Below, piece by piece: positions 51,950 to 59,515 of a stretch of 64,000 bases of DNA (position 1 is the first letter of the stretch; the number at the start of each line of letters is the position of its first letter). The notes under the pieces were generated by a model. The model was given only the letters and a program-made list of their open reading frames with translations. It did not search any database and had not been told where the DNA came from. The stretch spans positions 1,674,001 to 1,738,000 of the forward strand of contig NZ_AP012322.1 in assembly GCF_001025155.1 (NCBI RefSeq), given 5' to 3'. A program made the translations under genes and the position numbers. Source of the DNA: Bifidobacterium angulatum DSM 20098 = JCM 7096 (GTDB taxonomy: Bacteria > Actinomycetota > Actinomycetes > Actinomycetales > Bifidobacteriaceae).

Positions 51950-52555
51950 ATGAGCTCCGGTAATACCCCAATGCCCAGTGGAAAGGGCGACGCCCGGCGC
52001 GCAGCCATCGTGCGCGCGACACGCGACATATGTGCCGAACAGGGCTTCTCCAAAGTCACTGTCAGCGACATCGCGAACCGGGCACATATGACACGCTCCC
52101 TGTTCTACCACTATTTTTCCGATAAAGACGAGGTGGCGGATGCGGTTCTCGACGATGTGGTCGGCGACATTCTCGCGCAGCTGGAGCAGTGGGACGCCTC
52201 CCGCAAACCCGGAGACATCGACGGGTCGTTGAACGACTTCGTCAAGCTCATTCGCAAACTCATCGTGGAGGAAAGCCCCTTCTCGAACCGAATAGTCAAG
52301 GATGGCAACGCCGCGCTGTACATCCGTTTTCTCGACCGTATCACCGACCGCATAGCCGATATGTTGCAGCGGACCACCGCTCAGGATTTCGAGACCCACT
52401 ATGGCATGCCGATTATTTGCGTGCATGAAACGTTCATACTGCTGGTCTCCGGAATGATCTCGCTTATCCGCTCGCACCCTGACGTGCCGAATCTGACGGT
52501 GAAGAAGCTCATCGCGCAAACATTGCATCTCAACGATTACGTTCACCTCGATTAA
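51950..52555 (+). CDS. TetR-family transcriptional regulator
   Basis: 201 aa. The N-terminal TetR helix-turn-helix is clear (DICAEQGFSKVTVSDIANRAHMTRSLFYHYFSDKDEV, about residues 26-62). The C-terminal ligand-binding domain is helical and unassigned, with MISLIRSH near the end. TACACT ends 6 nt before ATG and no Shine-Dalgarno sequence is seen. It is divergent from dnaX and convergent with the lipid kinase gene; targets are unknown. Confidence 0.87.
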   Translation: MSSGNTPMPSGKGDARRAAIVRATRDICAEQGFSKVTVSDIANRAHMTRSLFYHYFSDKDEVADAVLDDVVGDILAQLEQWDASRKPGDIDGSLNDFVKLIRKLIVEESPFSNRIVKDGNAALYIRFLDRITDRIADMLQRTTAQDFETHYGMPIICVHETFILLVSGMISLIRSHPDVPNLTVKKLIAQTLHLNDYVHLD

Positions 52556-53724: not shown

Positions 53725-54141
53725 TCAATCGCATGCCGAGGGACCGGCACGCGCCGAAGCGACGACCTTGGAAACCAGGGGTACGCCCACATGCATGGTT
53801 ACGCTCACCTCCACATCGCCCATATGCTCTCCTTCCATATGGCATGACACCATGCTGGCGTTATTCCCCTCAGCCACGGCTCCCGCCAGCGAACACGGAT
53901 CACGCCGACCGTTTCGCCAGGCAAGGGCCGCTGAGAATGCGGCCAGGTCAGCCGCAGATCTGGCCTGGGCATGGCGCACCGCAACATGCCCCGCTCCGCT
54001 CATCACGCTGACGAGTGTTGCAGCCACCATGACCAGCGCGACGCCCACCACGGTTCCAGACCCTTTATCCGACCGGTGCAGACGGATGCAGAGCCGCCGG
54101 ATCGGCAGAAGCAATCGCTGCAATTGACTACGTGCAATCAT
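53725..54141 (-). CDS. TadE-like pseudopilin (Rv3654c/TadF-type)
   Basis: 138 aa. A basic cytoplasmic start (RRLCIRLHRSDKGSG) precedes a hydrophobic helix (about residues 30-50, TVVGVALVMVAATLVSV), as in the TadE-like proteins encoded next to Tad secretion ATPases in actinobacteria. The prepilin Glu at +5 is absent, so it resembles the TadF-type rather than a major pilin. The start overlaps the upstream tadE stop by 4 nt. Likely a minor pseudopilin of the Tad pilus. Confidence 0.75.
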   Translation of the reverse strand: MIARSQLQRLLLPIRRLCIRLHRSDKGSGTVVGVALVMVAATLVSVMSGAGHVAVRHAQARSAADLAAFSAALAWRNGRRDPCSLAGAVAEGNNASMVSCHMEGEHMGDVEVSVTMHVGVPLVSKVVASARAGPSACD

Positions 54142-54554
54142 GTCAGTATTCCCACTGCCCGGCCTTCGACCACGGTAGGCAGCACGCCTCTTGGGTCGGG
54201 CAGTACCGGGCAGCGAGCGACAACGTTCACCCGCTGCCCTGCAGTACTGACGTTCAAGGCGATGCCATCACCGACCGCATTGCGCGCCGCCGCAGACGAA
54301 TCCGCACCGCCGCCAGCGGCGACGGCGGCACGTGCCGCGGCCGATGCCGCATCCTGGCAGCCAATGGACACCCCCACCAGGCGAGTCAACGAAAGCAACA
54401 GCAATGCCACCACCATTACGGCAGGCAGCACTGTGGCGAACTCCGCGGTAACCGAGCCTCGTTCGAGCGGAGCATGCGGCAATGGCACCGCCCGCGGCGC
54501 GCGGCCAATCAATTCGTCGGGCGGGCGGCGAGCACGATGAGCCGTACGCGTCAT
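54138..54554 (-). CDS. tadE: TadE-family pseudopilin
   Basis: 138 aa from ATG 54552-54554 with GGGAGGG upstream. After a ~32-residue basic leader comes RGSVTAEFATVLPAVMVVALLLLS, a TadE signature. Cleavage after Gly33 would leave Glu38 at +5, the prepilin-peptidase pattern. TadE is a minor pilin needed for Flp pilus assembly. It overlaps the downstream TadF-like gene by 4 nt, lies 7 nt after the Flp-like gene, and forms one operon with both. Confidence 0.83.
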   Translation of the reverse strand: MTRTAHRARRPPDELIGRAPRAVPLPHAPLERGSVTAEFATVLPAVMVVALLLLSLTRLVGVSIGCQDAASAAARAAVAAGGGADSSAAARNAVGDGIALNVSTAGQRVNVVARCPVLPDPRGVLPTVVEGRAVGILT

Positions 54555-54561
54555 GGTCGGC

Positions 54562-54852
54562 TCACCCTCCCATGCTGAGTGCCTGTTTGACAATGTCCAG
54601 CAGCATTTTCCGCACTGTTTCCGATTTCATGATTGTGACCAGCAGTGCCGCAAAACCCGTGGCCGCAACGAGTACGACCGCATATTCGGCGGTTGCCGCA
54701 CCTTCTTCCGGTTCGATGCGCCCGAGCCGTGCTTTGGCGTCCATCAGGCACAGCTTTCCGTAGATTCCCTCTCGCACCGTCGATATGTGTCGTTCCGCCC
54801 GGTTTGCGAATCCCGGGCTTTTCCCGGTATTGGATGCAGATGTCTGGCGCAT
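54562..54852 (-). CDS. DUF4244/Flp-like prepilin
   Basis: 96 aa from ATG 54850-54852 with AAGGAGGG 4 nt upstream. The core is EEGAATAEYAVVLVAATGFAALLV; processing after Gly51 would give a mature N-terminus with Glu-Tyr at +5/+6, the Flp pilin hallmark. The hydrophobic helix spans about 56-75. This is probably the structural Flp pilin; the ~50-residue leader is long for Flp. It is the first gene of the minus-strand tad operon, preceded by the duplicated 52-bp module. Confidence 0.82.
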   Translation of the reverse strand: MRQTSASNTGKSPGFANRAERHISTVREGIYGKLCLMDAKARLGRIEPEEGAATAEYAVVLVAATGFAALLVTIMKSETVRKMLLDIVKQALSMGG

Positions 54853-54945
54853 GTTGCCCTCCTTGACTGTAGTCCGTTGCCGATCTGTTTCGACCGGCCC
54901 CATCACTGTGCCCAATGAGTTCGGGCGCCGGCAACGCGTTGGGGG

Positions 54946-54997
54946 ATTGTGGTCGACACTCCCCCTGGTTATCCACACCCCGGCGTGTTATCCACCG
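54946..54997 (-). promoter_or_regulatory. 52-bp module upstream of the flp-tadE operon
   Basis: Read on the minus strand, this sequence is the same as that at 55609-55660 with only two or three mismatches. It contains two GTGGATAAC direct repeats 19 bp apart (DnaA-box-like, TTATCCACA at 54969-54977 and TTATCCACC at 54988-54996 on the plus strand). It ends about 93 nt before the flp start. Confidence 0.75.
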
Positions 54998-55085
54998 CAA
55001 TCAGGCTAGGGCGAATGTTGTGTTCCGTTCGTTTCCCTTGAACCGACACGCCGTCGATATCACGCAAATGCACACAAGGAAACAT

Positions 55086-55208
55086 ATGGATGGAGCGAAG
55101 TGCACATTCCATTTCAAATCACTGTGTTTTCCTGTCGATTTGCACCATTTGAGCACGAAAGCGAACATGGTTTCCGACCAGGTTGCGCAGGCTCTCGAAC
55201 GCGCCTAA
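55086..55208 (+). CDS. Possible 40-aa small protein
   Basis: An ATG (55086) preceded by AAGGAAACAT opens a 40-codon frame ending in a Gln/Ala/Glu-rich helix (SDQVAQALERA). It lies between the two tad modules and upstream of an orphan terminator at 55353-55384. No family is recognised and codon evidence is weak. Confidence 0.25.
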   Translation: MDGAKCTFHFKSLCFPVDLHHLSTKANMVSDQVAQALERA

Positions 55209-55352
55209 ATTGTGAGGTACAAGGACAACAGAACAGAGCAGAGCCCACAAAGAAGTAATGGTCATAAGGACTGGTACGTTGGACGGGCATTGGATAGACT
55301 TACCGTTGCAACGATGATGTTGTGCAGAGATTCTGCTCAGGTTGGACTTGGA

Positions 55353-55384
55353 AGGGAACCCGCTTCGGCGGGTTCCCTTTTTTC
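55353..55384 (+). terminator. Orphan intrinsic terminator between the tad operons
   Basis: A 12-bp perfect stem with a C(TTCG)G tetraloop (55353-55364 and 55369-55380) followed by T6. It has no annotated gene directly upstream on the plus strand, so it may end a small RNA or the 40-aa ORF transcript. Confidence 0.85.
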
Positions 55385-55463
55385 ATGCGTCTGGTCCACC
55401 CTTGTCCAATATCGTTTGCGCACATCCTGTTTCCATACGCCCAGCGATTGAAACAGGCATTCA

Positions 55464-55477
55464 CCCCCCCCCCCCCC
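55464..55477. repeat. Homopolymeric C14 tract
   Basis: Fourteen consecutive C in the intergenic region 238 nt upstream of tadZ. Such tracts are prone to slipped-strand length change and to assembly error. Confidence 0.9.
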
Positions 55478-55608
55478 GCGTTTCCGTTGGCCCCTCCGCT
55501 CCGCTGCCCTTGTCTGCACTCATCGTCTTTTTCGCTCACATAGATCGCGCAAACACACAGAAAAAGACAGATCCACACGTAATATCACATGACATCCGTG
55601 GATCAGGC

Positions 55609-55660
55609 CGGTGGATAACACGCCGGGGTGTGGATAACCAATGGGAGTGTCGACCACAAT
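55609..55660 (+). promoter_or_regulatory. 52-bp module upstream of tadZ
   Basis: The plus-strand copy of the module at 54946-54997. It has GTGGATAAC at 55611-55619 and 55630-55638 (19-bp period) and ends 54 nt before the tadZ start. Both tad operons therefore carry the same module in the same orientation relative to transcription. Confidence 0.75.
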
Positions 55661-55714
55661 ACCCGAACGCCGTTGTGCCCTACCGAAATCACAGGATTCA
55701 ATCGAGGCATGACT

Positions 55715-56632
55715 ATGACATCATTCTCGAACAACACATACAGGCGGCCGGCACCGGCAAGCTCCGCCTTGCAGGCGCATACGTCGGCGGGCAGGCAATC
55801 GTCGATCGCCAACGTGCATACGCCCATGCCACATACCGGCTATGGGAGCATCATCGCCACGCCACGGTACTCGAATCTCATATCGTTTACCTCTCCAAGT
55901 GGCGGCATCGGGCTCAGCACCATCACTGCACTCGTTGCGCTCACGCTCAGCATGCAAGACATCGACTGCGCACTGCTGGACGCCGACATCCCGCATGGAG
56001 GTCTGGGGATTCTGCTTGGCATAGAGCACGAGCCGGGACTCAGCCTGCAGGACATCGACGCCCCGCTGGGCCGGATCGACGGCAAGGCCTTCAATCTTGA
56101 ACTGCCTCATTGGGAAGGCATCAACGTGCTCGCCTGCGCATCATGGCGCGGGCAACTGCCTGAATGGTGGCAGATGCAGGCGGCCATACAGGCCTTATGC
56201 GAAGCCAACCGTATGGTACTGGCCGATGTTGGCGACGGAACGGTTTGGGAATACGTGCCGGAACTGCTCATGGCACAGCATGTTGTCGCCGTGGAGTTGT
56301 CGGTGCTTGGCCTGGCCCGTGCCAAGGCACACCTTGCACGGCTCCAGCGACTGCGCCAGGAGCTTCAGGGAGATGACATCGACCACCCCGCACCGATTGT
56401 GGTGTTTACCGAACCACGTGGGGCGCCAAAACGATCGGCATCATCAGCCATCGCCACCACGGAGGCCATAGCCTACCTTGGCGGTGACGCGCTCGGCCCT
56501 ATACAGCATGTTCCCCGATTATGCGCAGACATCCTGGAAGGTCTTGGCATTGAATCGACCCCTCGATGCAACCGCCCCACCATCGAGGCCCTAAGCGAGC
56601 GGATTGTGCAATCCGCAAACATTCAGACCTGA
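55715..56632 (+). CDS. tadZ: TadZ/CpaE-like pilus localisation ATPase homologue
   Basis: 305 aa from ATG 55715 (GAGG 7 nt upstream). After a ~50-residue leader, FTSPSGGIGLSTITALVALTLS (about 58-79) is a degenerate MinD/ParA Walker A; the signature Lys is replaced (GGIGLST), a feature of TadZ/CpaE-type proteins that localise the Tad apparatus rather than act as partition ATPases. DCALLDADIPHGGLGILLGI and VLADVGDG follow. It begins the plus-strand tad operon, so the Tad assignment is by context and fold. Confidence 0.75.
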   Translation: MTSFSNNTYRRPAPASSALQAHTSAGRQSSIANVHTPMPHTGYGSIIATPRYSNLISFTSPSGGIGLSTITALVALTLSMQDIDCALLDADIPHGGLGILLGIEHEPGLSLQDIDAPLGRIDGKAFNLELPHWEGINVLACASWRGQLPEWWQMQAAIQALCEANRMVLADVGDGTVWEYVPELLMAQHVVAVELSVLGLARAKAHLARLQRLRQELQGDDIDHPAPIVVFTEPRGAPKRSASSAIATTEAIAYLGGDALGPIQHVPRLCADILEGLGIESTPRCNRPTIEALSERIVQSANIQT

Positions 56633-56768
56633 CCAGGCCTGGGCGAGACCAGCCACGAAGCAATGCCGATCACGAAGCGATGGAGAATCCCCCGGCGCAG
56701 GCAGCGCGAATGCAGGAAAGCATGCACAGTCAAAGCATGTACACAGTCAGTCGACACAGGAGACGATC

Positions 56769-57893
56769 ATGACGGTATTACGGCTCGGACCGCTGGAGGA
56801 GCTTGGCGCCGACCCCGGCATCACCGATGTGGCGATCACTTGCGAAGGAAGAGTCTGGGTGGATCGCGGTAACGGAATGAGCGAATATCATCCGCGCATC
56901 CCACTGCGCTCCCCCGCAACGGTACGCGAATACGCCGTTCAGCTATGCTCGCAGCTCGGCCGCAGGCTCGACGACGCCCGCCCGATCGCCGACGCCTCCG
57001 ACGATTACGGAGTGCGCGTGCACGCGGCCATCGCACCGCTGGTACCGCAAGGCGCCTCAATATCCATCCGGTTCCCCGCACAATCCAACCCCACGCTCGA
57101 CGCGCTGCTTCGCCAAGGCATGTTTCCCACCCCATGGCTGCCGGTACTGCGCAATCTGGTGCGGCAGAAGGCAACCATACTCATCACCGGCGGCACCGGT
57201 ACCGGCAAAACCACGCTGATGAAGGCACTGCTGAATGAAACCGAACCCAACGAACGCATCGTCACCGTGGAGGAGACACGCGAGCTGAACGACATTACCT
57301 CGCACAATCATGTGGCATTGGCCACTCGCGAGGCCAATGTGGAAGGTTCCGGCGCCGTGGGCTTGCCGGAACTGGTTAAGGCCACGCTGCGCATGCGCCC
57401 GGATCGAGTCGTGCTGGGCGAATGCCGTGGCGAGGAAATCGCCGACCTGCTTCGCGCATACAATTCCGGCCACCGCGGAGGCATGACCACGTTACATGCG
57501 GACGGCGTGGCACGCGTCCCCTCACGACTCACCTCTTTGGGCATGCTCGCGGGATTGCGCCCCGAAGCGCTCTGTTTGCTCATCGAAGGGGCGTTCGACA
57601 TAGTGATTCATCTTGAACGCACTGCAGGCCACCGACGCATCGCACAACTCGGCGTATTAGGCAGTGCCGGAACACAGCTCGCCGGCATCCCCCTATCGAC
57701 CTGGAGCGGCACTGGACCACCCTCGTATTCAGCGGAATGGAACCGCTTCGCCGGCAGATGGCAATCGTATGAAAGGCCCTATGCCGAGAAAAAGCCGCCC
57801 GCAAGACAGCAGAAGAACAACGCGAAGCCCGTCCGGAAACCGTCGAGGCTGGTTTATCAGCTTGAAAACCAACCGGCTGGGACTTGCCATTGA
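56769..57893 (+). CDS. tadA: TadA/CpaF-type secretion ATPase
   Basis: 374 aa from ATG 56769 with AGGAG upstream. A hexameric ATPase powering Flp pilus assembly. Walker A is GGTGTGKTT (141-149); the Asp box (VTVEETRELN), Walker B (RPDRVVLGECRGEE) and His box (GHRGGMTTLHAD) are intact. The N-terminal domain is short compared with CpaF, and the last ~40 residues are a basic Pro/Lys/Arg-rich tail. It is 136 nt after tadZ and precedes the fused tadB-tadC. Confidence 0.9.
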   Translation: MTVLRLGPLEELGADPGITDVAITCEGRVWVDRGNGMSEYHPRIPLRSPATVREYAVQLCSQLGRRLDDARPIADASDDYGVRVHAAIAPLVPQGASISIRFPAQSNPTLDALLRQGMFPTPWLPVLRNLVRQKATILITGGTGTGKTTLMKALLNETEPNERIVTVEETRELNDITSHNHVALATREANVEGSGAVGLPELVKATLRMRPDRVVLGECRGEEIADLLRAYNSGHRGGMTTLHADGVARVPSRLTSLGMLAGLRPEALCLLIEGAFDIVIHLERTAGHRRIAQLGVLGSAGTQLAGIPLSTWSGTGPPSYSAEWNRFAGRWQSYERPYAEKKPPARQQKNNAKPVRKPSRLVYQLENQPAGTCH

Positions 57894-57984: not shown

Positions 57985-58120
57985 GCAGTCAGACCAATCG
58001 CATGACCAGATCGACAGCACGTCCAAATCAACCACGCAGTCAGACCGACAGCACGACCAGATTGGTTGCACGGCCAGACCGACAGCACGACCAGATTGGT
58101 TGCACGGCCAGACCTGCCAC
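57985..58120. repeat. Tandem repeat between tadA and tadBC
   Basis: A 34-bp unit beginning CAGACCGACAGCACGACCAG occurs twice exactly in tandem (58041-58074 and 58075-58108). More degenerate related copies lie just upstream from about 57985, and a partial CAGACC follows. It lies in the non-coding gap between the tadA stop and the tadBC start. Confidence 0.75.
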
Positions 58121-58168
58121 ATGGCCAAGCCGACCGCAATATTCCGACCATGGCATTGGAGAAACACC

Positions 58169-59515
58169 ATGCGTACCATGCACACCCTGCCCATCATCAT
58201 CACCGTGACGATGGTTGCCACAGCCTTCACAATCCCTTGGATCCGATTACGCTGCGAACAACACCGCATGGCAGGTCTCACCATGGCACGCGCAACACCG
58301 CCCACGAACGCTTCGGGCATCGGTTCCGTCATCGCCGCGATCATCGCACGGACAGCCAGCGGAGGCAGCGCTCTCGAAGCCTTCCAGGAACAGTTCGGCG
58401 CACGATTCGCCACCTCGCGCATCACCACCGAACGCATCGCGATGATACTGCGCCGCCACGCCTCCGATGACGACACCGAGCATGACATCACCCGTATTGC
58501 CGGGCATCTTGCCTCGGCATGCGCATTAAGCGAGCGACTCGGCTGCGAAGTGCACCGCTGCCTGCAATCGGTATCCGACTCATACCGGCGTGAGTGCAAG
58601 GCGCGCGATCTACGCAAGGAGGCATTCGCCGCACCTCAGGCGACCATCCGCCTGATGAGCGCGCTCCCCCTCGCCACAGTGGCGCTCGGCGAATTCATGG
58701 GAGCGCACCCGATAACATTCCTGTTCAGCTCGCCCACCGGATTGGCCTGCCTTGTTGCAGGATCGGTTTGGTACGTTCTCGGACTGCTGTGGATACGCCG
58801 CTTGTTTACGCGATTCAATGCAGGTTGGCACGACGGGCCGCCAGTGCCGTTGGCATTGGAGATGATCGGAGCCGCCATCTCGCAGGGATCGCCCATACCA
58901 ATGGCATTGGCCGCCGTAGGGCAAGCCCTTGAAGGGAACCGAACGGGAGGAATTGCCACGGTATTACGCAACGCGGGAGAGGCATTGCTGAACCAGACAA
59001 CATGGCGCGAAGCGTGGACCGGGGCATGTGCGAGCGCATACCGGAGGCAGCCCCACAGCCCACACCATGTACGGGGAAGGCCCGTCTGTTCCGCCACACC
59101 GGAAGGAATCCCCGTAAGAAGCATCGACGGCATATGCGCCGGCAAAAACGCTAATAGACATGCACGCAAAGGCGCCGGCAAAAACGATGACGACGGCAGC
59201 GCCGGCACCGGCAGCAGCACCAGCAATGGCACTGGCGCTGACAACGGAACCGGCAACGGCAACGATTTCCATAGCGATATCAGCCGTCAGGCAATGCTGA
59301 TCGCCAACTGTCTGGAGGCGGCATGGCATCATGGCGCGTCGCCCATGGCACAGCTTCGTCTTGCCGTTGCGGAACATGAACGCGCCGAGCGCAGCGCCAT
59401 CGAACAATCCGCCGCACGACTTTCCATCCAACTGCTCAGCCCCACCGGACTCTGTTTCCTCCCGGCCTTCATCCTCATCGGCATTATCCCAGCCATCGCC
59501 TCATTCGCCGCCTGA
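58169..59515 (+). CDS. TadB-TadC fused inner-membrane platform protein
   Basis: 448 aa from ATG 58169 (GGAG upstream). Two T2SSF-type platform halves appear joined. The first has membrane segments near residues 8-25 and 160-210 with the cytoplasmic PxAxxR-like helix region (TadB). The second starts near 235 (ALEMIGAAISQGSPIPMALAAVG) and ends with LSIQLLSPTGLCFLPAFILIGIIPAIASF (TadC). A Gly/Asn/Ser/Thr low-complexity linker (about 345-375) separates parts of the second half. Most bacteria encode TadB and TadC separately. The platform anchors the Tad ATPase at the membrane. Confidence 0.75.
   Translation: MRTMHTLPIIITVTMVATAFTIPWIRLRCEQHRMAGLTMARATPPTNASGIGSVIAAIIARTASGGSALEAFQEQFGARFATSRITTERIAMILRRHASDDDTEHDITRIAGHLASACALSERLGCEVHRCLQSVSDSYRRECKARDLRKEAFAAPQATIRLMSALPLATVALGEFMGAHPITFLFSSPTGLACLVAGSVWYVLGLLWIRRLFTRFNAGWHDGPPVPLALEMIGAAISQGSPIPMALAAVGQALEGNRTGGIATVLRNAGEALLNQTTWREAWTGACASAYRRQPHSPHHVRGRPVCSATPEGIPVRSIDGICAGKNANRHARKGAGKNDDDGSAGTGSSTSNGTGADNGTGNGNDFHSDISRQAMLIANCLEAAWHHGASPMAQLRLAVAEHERAERSAIEQSAARLSIQLLSPTGLCFLPAFILIGIIPAIASFAA

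Follow-up and report, generated by a model that had tools for sequence, protein, structure and literature searches.

Why should two divergent operons of a pilus locus carry the same sequence in front of them, and what would that sequence do? In the 64,000-nt stretch of Bifidobacterium angulatum DNA analysed here (the window), tadZ, tadA, tadE and flp lie together as a Tad/Flp pilus locus; the flp-like, tadE, tadF-like and DAG-kinase-like genes read leftward, and tadZ, tadA and a tadB/C-like frame read rightward (Table 1). Two inverted arms of 62 nt each, 94% complementary and 611 nt apart, precede the two operons. The first-pass annotation had proposed that a 52-bp DnaA-box-like module is duplicated here as a shared promoter/operator coupling both parts of the Tad apparatus. 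The duplication is real, although 52 bp proved too short a measure of it, and the copies do have the same orientation relative to transcription, with copy 1 directed toward flp-tadE-tadF (minus strand) and copy 2 toward tadZ-tadA (plus strand). The same module recurs in bifidobacteria before pilus, DNA-uptake and recombination genes, and we think it likely that each arm is the upstream promoter part of a genus-wide, competence-type regulon of Bifidobacterium.

Table 1. Features of the tad locus (positions within the window)
Feature	Position	Strand	Details
tadF-like gene	53725..54141	-	Named from position; no Pfam match
tadE-like minor pilin (frame)	54138..54593	-	PF07811, 5.5e-07; TadE_Rv3655c, 41.9 bits (cut-off, 40)
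flp-like pilin gene (DUF4244)	54562..54852	-	PF14029, 2.7e-20, on frame 54562-54858; AAGGAGG leader
Predicted core promoter, flp operon	54905..54934	-	TTGCCG 54929-54934, 18-nt spacer, CACAGT 54905-54910; predicted by resemblance only
Module copy 1, before flp-tadE-tadF	54936..54997	-	GTGGATAAC 54987-54995, TGTGGATAAC 54968-54977, CGACCACA 54948-54955
Conserved structured RNA with intrinsic terminator at its end	55200..55386	+	~180 nt, located between copies 1 and 2
Module copy 2, before tadZ-tadA	55609..55670	+	GTGGATAAC 55611-55619, TGTGGATAAC 55629-55638, CGACCACA 55651-55658
Predicted core promoter, tadZ	55673..55702	+	TTGTGC 55673-55678, 18-nt spacer, TTCAAT 55697-55702
tadZ (CpaE-like ATPase)	55709..56632	+	CpaE_hom_Actino, 1.3e-19, under its cut-off
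tadA (T2SSE ATPase), open frame	56604..57893	+	PF00437, 6.5e-39; true start probably further inside the frame
tadB/C-like open frame	58100..59515	+	PF00482, 5.6e-05, just under cut-off; no NCBIfam match

The word GTGGATAAC occurs four times in the window (expected, 0.30), every copy lying within the two modules, and this count was reached in 0 of 100 dinucleotide shuffles of the window; the 19-nt spacing between the words is as the first-pass annotation had it. The likeness to consensus DnaA boxes, also part of the original proposal, holds in full for the inner word, TTATCCACA, which is a perfect match, but not quite for the outer word, TTATCCACC, which differs by one base. In a BLAST search of the organism's own 2.02-Mb genome, the full-length module was recovered only twice. 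The predicted tadZ promoter ends in its TTCAAT 6 nt ahead of the ATG at 55709, for which a leaderless message is predicted; TTCAAT stands at the equal position before tadZ in ten genomes of the genus (G001, G003, G005, G006, G009, G012, G017, G018, G019 and G023), among which the -35-like part is variable. A sigma-70 and terminator scanner returned no prediction for 54800-55800. Two side observations concern the surroundings. A run of 14 C residues (55464-55477), possibly slippage-prone, lies ~130 nt upstream of module copy 2, and no C or G run of ≥9 was found in nine other divergent loci checked. A TetR-family gene (51950-52555, plus strand) stands beside the flp operon and is kept in 8 of the 10 loci with ≥1300 nt beyond the DAGK gene; it shows no link to the module, and a role as the module's regulator would be possible at most.

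Is the module a peculiarity of this locus? In a genus set of 112 genomes, all of which (112/112) hold a tadZ relative, the core GTGGATAACACGCCGNNNTGTGGATAAC (≤3 mismatches) was found in 29 of 112 genomes and the pattern TGTGGATAACN{9,15}CCACA in 105 of 112; a control pattern for the former and a reversed control pattern for the latter each gave 0/112. Searched for in named genomes, the strict pattern returned 108 stretches, Bifidobacterium accounting for 80 of 80 among the matches listed; B. catenulatum subsp. kashiwanohense JCM 15439 is one of the strains matched. Since the panel used to name downstream genes came from such sites and is circular, a profile was trained on 21 tad sites alone, taken from 15 training genomes; its threshold was 15 bits, and 2-mer block shuffles of 360 loci reached a maximum of 11.2 bits. 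Copies 1 and 2 score 41.6 and 43.5 bits, respectively, both sites being in the training set. Scores above 15 bits were obtained upstream of tadZ in 70 of 112 genomes (56 of the 97 outside the training genomes) and upstream of the flp operon in 64 of the 90 genomes with flp located, and other profile matches above 15 bits across the 112 tad loci numbered 3 in 983 kb. There was no tadZ match above 15 bits in 42 of 112 genomes; two of these loci (G072 and G094) are truncated by a contig end, and the 42 include all 11 small genomes that we presume from their size to be Gardnerella (G035, G057, G076, G099 and G104-G110). Where both operons were located (90 genomes), the layout is tandem in 80 and divergent in 10; both operons carry the module above 15 bits in 54 of the 90 (48 tandem, 6 divergent), and it is thus kept irrespective of copy inversion. 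The proposed coupling of the two Tad halves through a shared promoter/operator is well supported by this joint occurrence. A comparison with other bifidobacterial tad loci had been suggested as a check, and it finds the module conserved in relatives and the controls empty.

Site comparison also brought out features absent from the first-pass annotation, i.e., a constant element, CGACCACA, and -35/-10-like elements at a fixed distance from the module. Of the 76 ACCACA-type sites in genomes G000-G023, 75 were examined (G003:C26:18536 was left out). The ACCACA of CGACCACA begins 12-14 nt past TGTGGATAAC in most sites, GACACGCC is present with ≤2 mismatches in 50/75 and missing in 25/75, and in 49/75 the first base of a -35-like word (TTGC or TGGAC) lies 12-13 nt past ACCACA. 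ATG codons opening frames of ≥60 aa peak at 49-50 nt after ACCACA (35/75 sites, with ~1 at each other position), and 6 nt separate the end of the -10-like element (TTCAAT, TCACGCT, TCATCAT or the like) from this ATG. A tally of TANNNT by spacing was weak (7/50 at 18 nt), the ATG-anchored alignment being clearer. Because start codons cluster in this way, we predict a fixed promoter geometry with leaderless transcripts, the candidates for leaderless messages being tadZ, comEA, cpaB and the ftsK-like gene; ribosome-binding leaders are present at flp of the window and at recA. Read 5' to 3', the whole element would consist of GACACGCC, 4-5 nt, TGTGGATAAC (a perfect DnaA-type box), ~12 nt, ACCACA (usually as CGACCACA), ~13 nt, the -35-like TTGC/TGGAC, 17-18 nt, the -10-like element, 6 nt and an ATG that would be leaderless at many genes. 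Separately, the cpaB and comEA leaders contain, by eye, inverted repeats over the predicted -10 and start codon that differ between the genes; operator or leader control is possible there.

With the gene panel cleared of residues encoded by the module itself, the 75 sites precede tadZ-tadA (11), the flp operon (10), M23 (9), comEA-comEC (8), AbiEi/nuclease-like (8), cpaB (7), EssC/FtsK-like (6), a small membrane protein (3), s147 (2), toxin-like (2), RelE-like (1) and recA (1) genes, seven being unmatched. The 113 sites in the 108 named-genome stretches precede flp (19), tadZA (18), com (9), AbiEi (9), CpaB (8), M23 (6), small membrane (4), FtsK (4) and s147 (3) genes, with 33 unmatched; six unmatched sites lie within ~600 nt of a stretch end. 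Pfam matches to SAF, HHH_3, Competence, M23, FtsK_SpoIIIE and RecA back the downstream genes, the comF, EssC and CpaB names are under the NCBIfam cut-offs, the nuclease match is under that of Pfam, and many names at unmatched sites were assigned by eye. One comF-like gene is among the latter (TIGR00201, 41.5 bits, under cut-off), and no regulator gene carrying the module was evident by eye among the unmatched sites. Toxin-antitoxin-like frames, also named by eye, repeatedly lie behind the module (L328, L258, L306, L310, L317 and others), as if captured by the regulon.

For the com, cpaB and recA genes, upstream regions were drawn from the best 30 loci of 109 (comEC), 110 (cpaB) and 112 (recA) genomes. 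Among these best 30 in each case, scores exceed 15 bits at 23/30 comEA-comEC loci (7/30 below), 22/30 cpaB loci (8/30 below) and 10/30 recA loci (20/30 below). The right half, CGACCAC, is found ≤350 nt upstream of recA in 26 of the best 30 loci of 112 (shuffle rate, 3%), 25 of these best 30 having a -35-like word 9-17 nt past it, and G017 carries a full module before recA. At the genus level, a shared cis element therefore stands before pilus and comEA-comEC genes alike, and with G017 and the right-half sites a recombination gene comes within the regulon as well. In the organism's own genome, the intact module is confined to the two tad operons and to a third core site (≤3 mismatches; C1:1920529-1920556) before a 339-aa frame. 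This frame has no Pfam or NCBIfam match; tblastn within the genus groups it with others, two of which, from G020, match REase_MTES_1575 below threshold, and we refer to the group as AbiEi/nuclease-like, the AbiEi part being our assumption. By eye, the resident recA retains GTGTCGACCACA plus a good -35/-10, and comEA and cpaB show CCACA halves in degenerate form; all three loci fail to exceed 15 bits, and no intact shared site precedes the com genes. These three genes thus keep half-sites only, which is the chief weak point of our reading; we infer the regulon for the genus, and it is only partly visible here.

How might such an element work? Paired half-sites well upstream of the -35 are usual for activators, and by extension to the module, one or more activators bound upstream of the -35 would recruit RNA polymerase. 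The left half may be recognised by DnaA or by another protein with similar specificity, and CGACCACA would have a separate reader. This would jointly switch on the Tad pilus (tadZA, flp-tadEF and cpaB), the uptake channel (comEA-comEC) and recA, along with an EssC/FtsK-like ATPase, an M23 peptidase and nuclease-like proteins. The combination suggests that these gut bacteria may induce a whole natural programme of DNA uptake at once, perhaps in stationary phase. In stationary-phase B. lactis A6, both tad operons are upregulated 7.0-12.4-fold according to the available text (6.5-12.1 in the abstract) and tadV 1.5-fold, a comparison made at the level of the operons (PMC8876546).

An alternative is that DnaA itself is the regulator, the module being a cluster of DnaA boxes through which Tad and com expression would follow the replication state; we regard this as possible, with appreciable doubt. 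The left half equals the boxes of the DnaA-box clusters that we find at contig ends (the presumed oriC), where TTATCCACA is preceded by G in 10/13, and a further TTATCCACA lies ≤45 nt upstream of 9/75 sites, including 7 of 21 tad sites. The DnaA-box form TT(A/G)TNCACA tolerates two positions. Among 137 tad profile matches, the left half is exact in 94, and its changes lean toward these two positions (25/54 over nine positions against 2/9 if even; 21/28 once six poorly aligned rows are removed), although substitutions are common to related species, so that independent events are fewer than the counts. Against DnaA as sole regulator, CGACCACA and GACACGCC are not DnaA boxes, and the recA sites keep CGACCACA while mostly lacking the left half; the right half itself reads CCACA in 134/137 rows, in an alignment that favours CCACA. 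Given the left-half pattern and recA sites mostly without a left half, we infer two readers, DnaA or a DnaA-like protein and a further factor. Of separate note, a divergent pair of DnaA-type boxes lies away from the contig ends at G000:C1:1744263-1744331, with like pairs recurring in the relatives G006, G007 and G013.

The regulon could also be read more ambitiously, as a complete, coordinated natural-transformation programme with the Tad pilus at its core, controlled by DnaA (or a DnaA-like reader) and a further factor, in which M23, the EssC/FtsK-like ATPase and a WXG-like protein with its partner hydrolase would form a fratricide arm freeing the DNA of neighbours. Among the unmatched sites, a small frame containing a W-x-G stretch does recur, by eye, in a pair with a larger one; the larger frame has a GHSQGG hydrolase-like stretch in L270, and Pfam gave no match for the small one in L249. 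We hold this fuller programme to be rather unlikely.

Should the regulon instead serve surface adhesion for host colonisation, the com genes would be passengers. In B. breve, Tad pili have a role in colonisation (as cited in the available text of PMC8876546), and three sites stand before sortase-pilin-like frames, so named by eye (L324, L261 and L276). Yet comEA-comEC, recA and nuclease-like genes, which have no known adhesion role, carry the module or a half of it in most loci tested, making an adhesion regulon a poor explanation. Still less probable is a DNA-damage regulon, a reading that the right half before recA would favour; the G017 recA has a separate palindrome, which we take to be LexA-type, upstream of the module, and none of tad, cpaB and M23 is a repair gene.

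A conserved structured RNA lies between the two modules (Table 1). Relatives occur in 105/112 genomes, as partial matches only in at least 13 of those, and the RNA lies near tadZ in 56/112 tad loci. It folds with a z of -4.3, and 12 of 37 pairs covary over 35 sequences, 8 of the 12 in the terminator. Rfam gave no gathering match for the RNA in six loci, and the weak matches to istR and rsmX on 54800-55800, below gathering, were not believed. The RNA is a candidate 6S/Ms1-like or other regulatory RNA; for Ms1, the available text of PMC9130861 finds no intergenic region in Bifidobacterium able to hold it.

That the inverted copies could recombine and flip this interior had been part of the initial proposal, and flips between species are indeed seen. 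In 56/112 loci a conserved segment of the interior is found near tad, and in 8 it is reversed relative to tadZ. The divergent group numbers 13, i.e., ten located genomes plus G071, G072 and G097, which were assigned from where their modules and RNA lie, flp not being located in them. Within it, the segment is reversed in G004, G045, G058, G059 and G097 (flp not located) and not reversed in G000, G016, G029, G055, G065, G068 and G071, and the TadA tree of these 13 genomes requires at least two orientation changes. Less in keeping with the proposal, 3 of the 8 reversed loci (G008, G050 and G111) are tandem and have no module scoring above threshold, so that a flip can occur without modules. Recombination between inverted modules is a simple cause in the divergent genomes, and other routes exist. 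As for an invertible switch of tad expression, both orientations of the interior do occur among divergent genomes, visible between species only. Each promoter, however, lies within its repeat and keeps its direction and its operon, so a flip reconnects no promoter to a different gene and should not switch tad; moreover, 80 of the 90 genomes are tandem and hence without an inverted pair, and the longest frame entirely within the interval is 92 aa. Such a switch is highly improbable. Chance or remnant duplication, in favour of which nothing was found, is refuted by the genus-wide conservation and the empty controls and retains a negligible probability.

We thus return to the competence-type regulon. 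Competence regulons with one shared element include those of ComX/cin-box in streptococci, ComK in Bacillus and CRP-S in gamma-proteobacteria. As in these, one element here marks pilus, comEA-comEC, recA, lytic-enzyme and nuclease-like genes; in contrast to them, the pilus is of the Tad/Flp type, a DnaA-type box forms part of the element, which does not resemble the boxes of those systems, and the DNA uptake is predicted. Among the titles and abstract openings listed in literature searches, none mentioned such a motif or natural transformation of Bifidobacterium, nor did the available portions of PMC12236230, PMC10367592, PMC12519793 and PMC6916266; a Gardnerella genome paper does, in its available text, interpret the presence of ComEA and ComEC as pointing to competence (PMC2928729).

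Closer at hand is Micrococcus luteus, whose transformation requires Flp/Tad pili (PMC4322843), and in which transformability falls at least 1000-fold upon a missense mutation in an FtsK/SpoIIIE-family gene next to tad, the comEA/EC promoter not being directly repressed (PMC8467076). The likeness to our regulon lies in the Tad pilus, the comEA-comEC operon and the involvement of an FtsK/SpoIIIE-family gene, and the difference lies in the shared promoter motif, which the available parts of these two papers do not describe. According to the available text of PMC12849477, the signals, cascade and upstream control of competence in this actinobacterial model have yet to be identified, which is the context in which a sequence-defined regulon supplies genes, a promoter element as a target for mutation and a growth phase in which to look. 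For gut bifidobacteria, a genus called recalcitrant to genetic manipulation (PMC5514069, in part), it would make natural transformation directly testable. The tad2003 pilus of B. breve, finally, has the same kind of tad gene set, but is described in the available text as a colonisation factor, without a com-gene link (PMC8876546, PMC6916266); the regulon would add a possible second function to the Tad pilus of colonisation.
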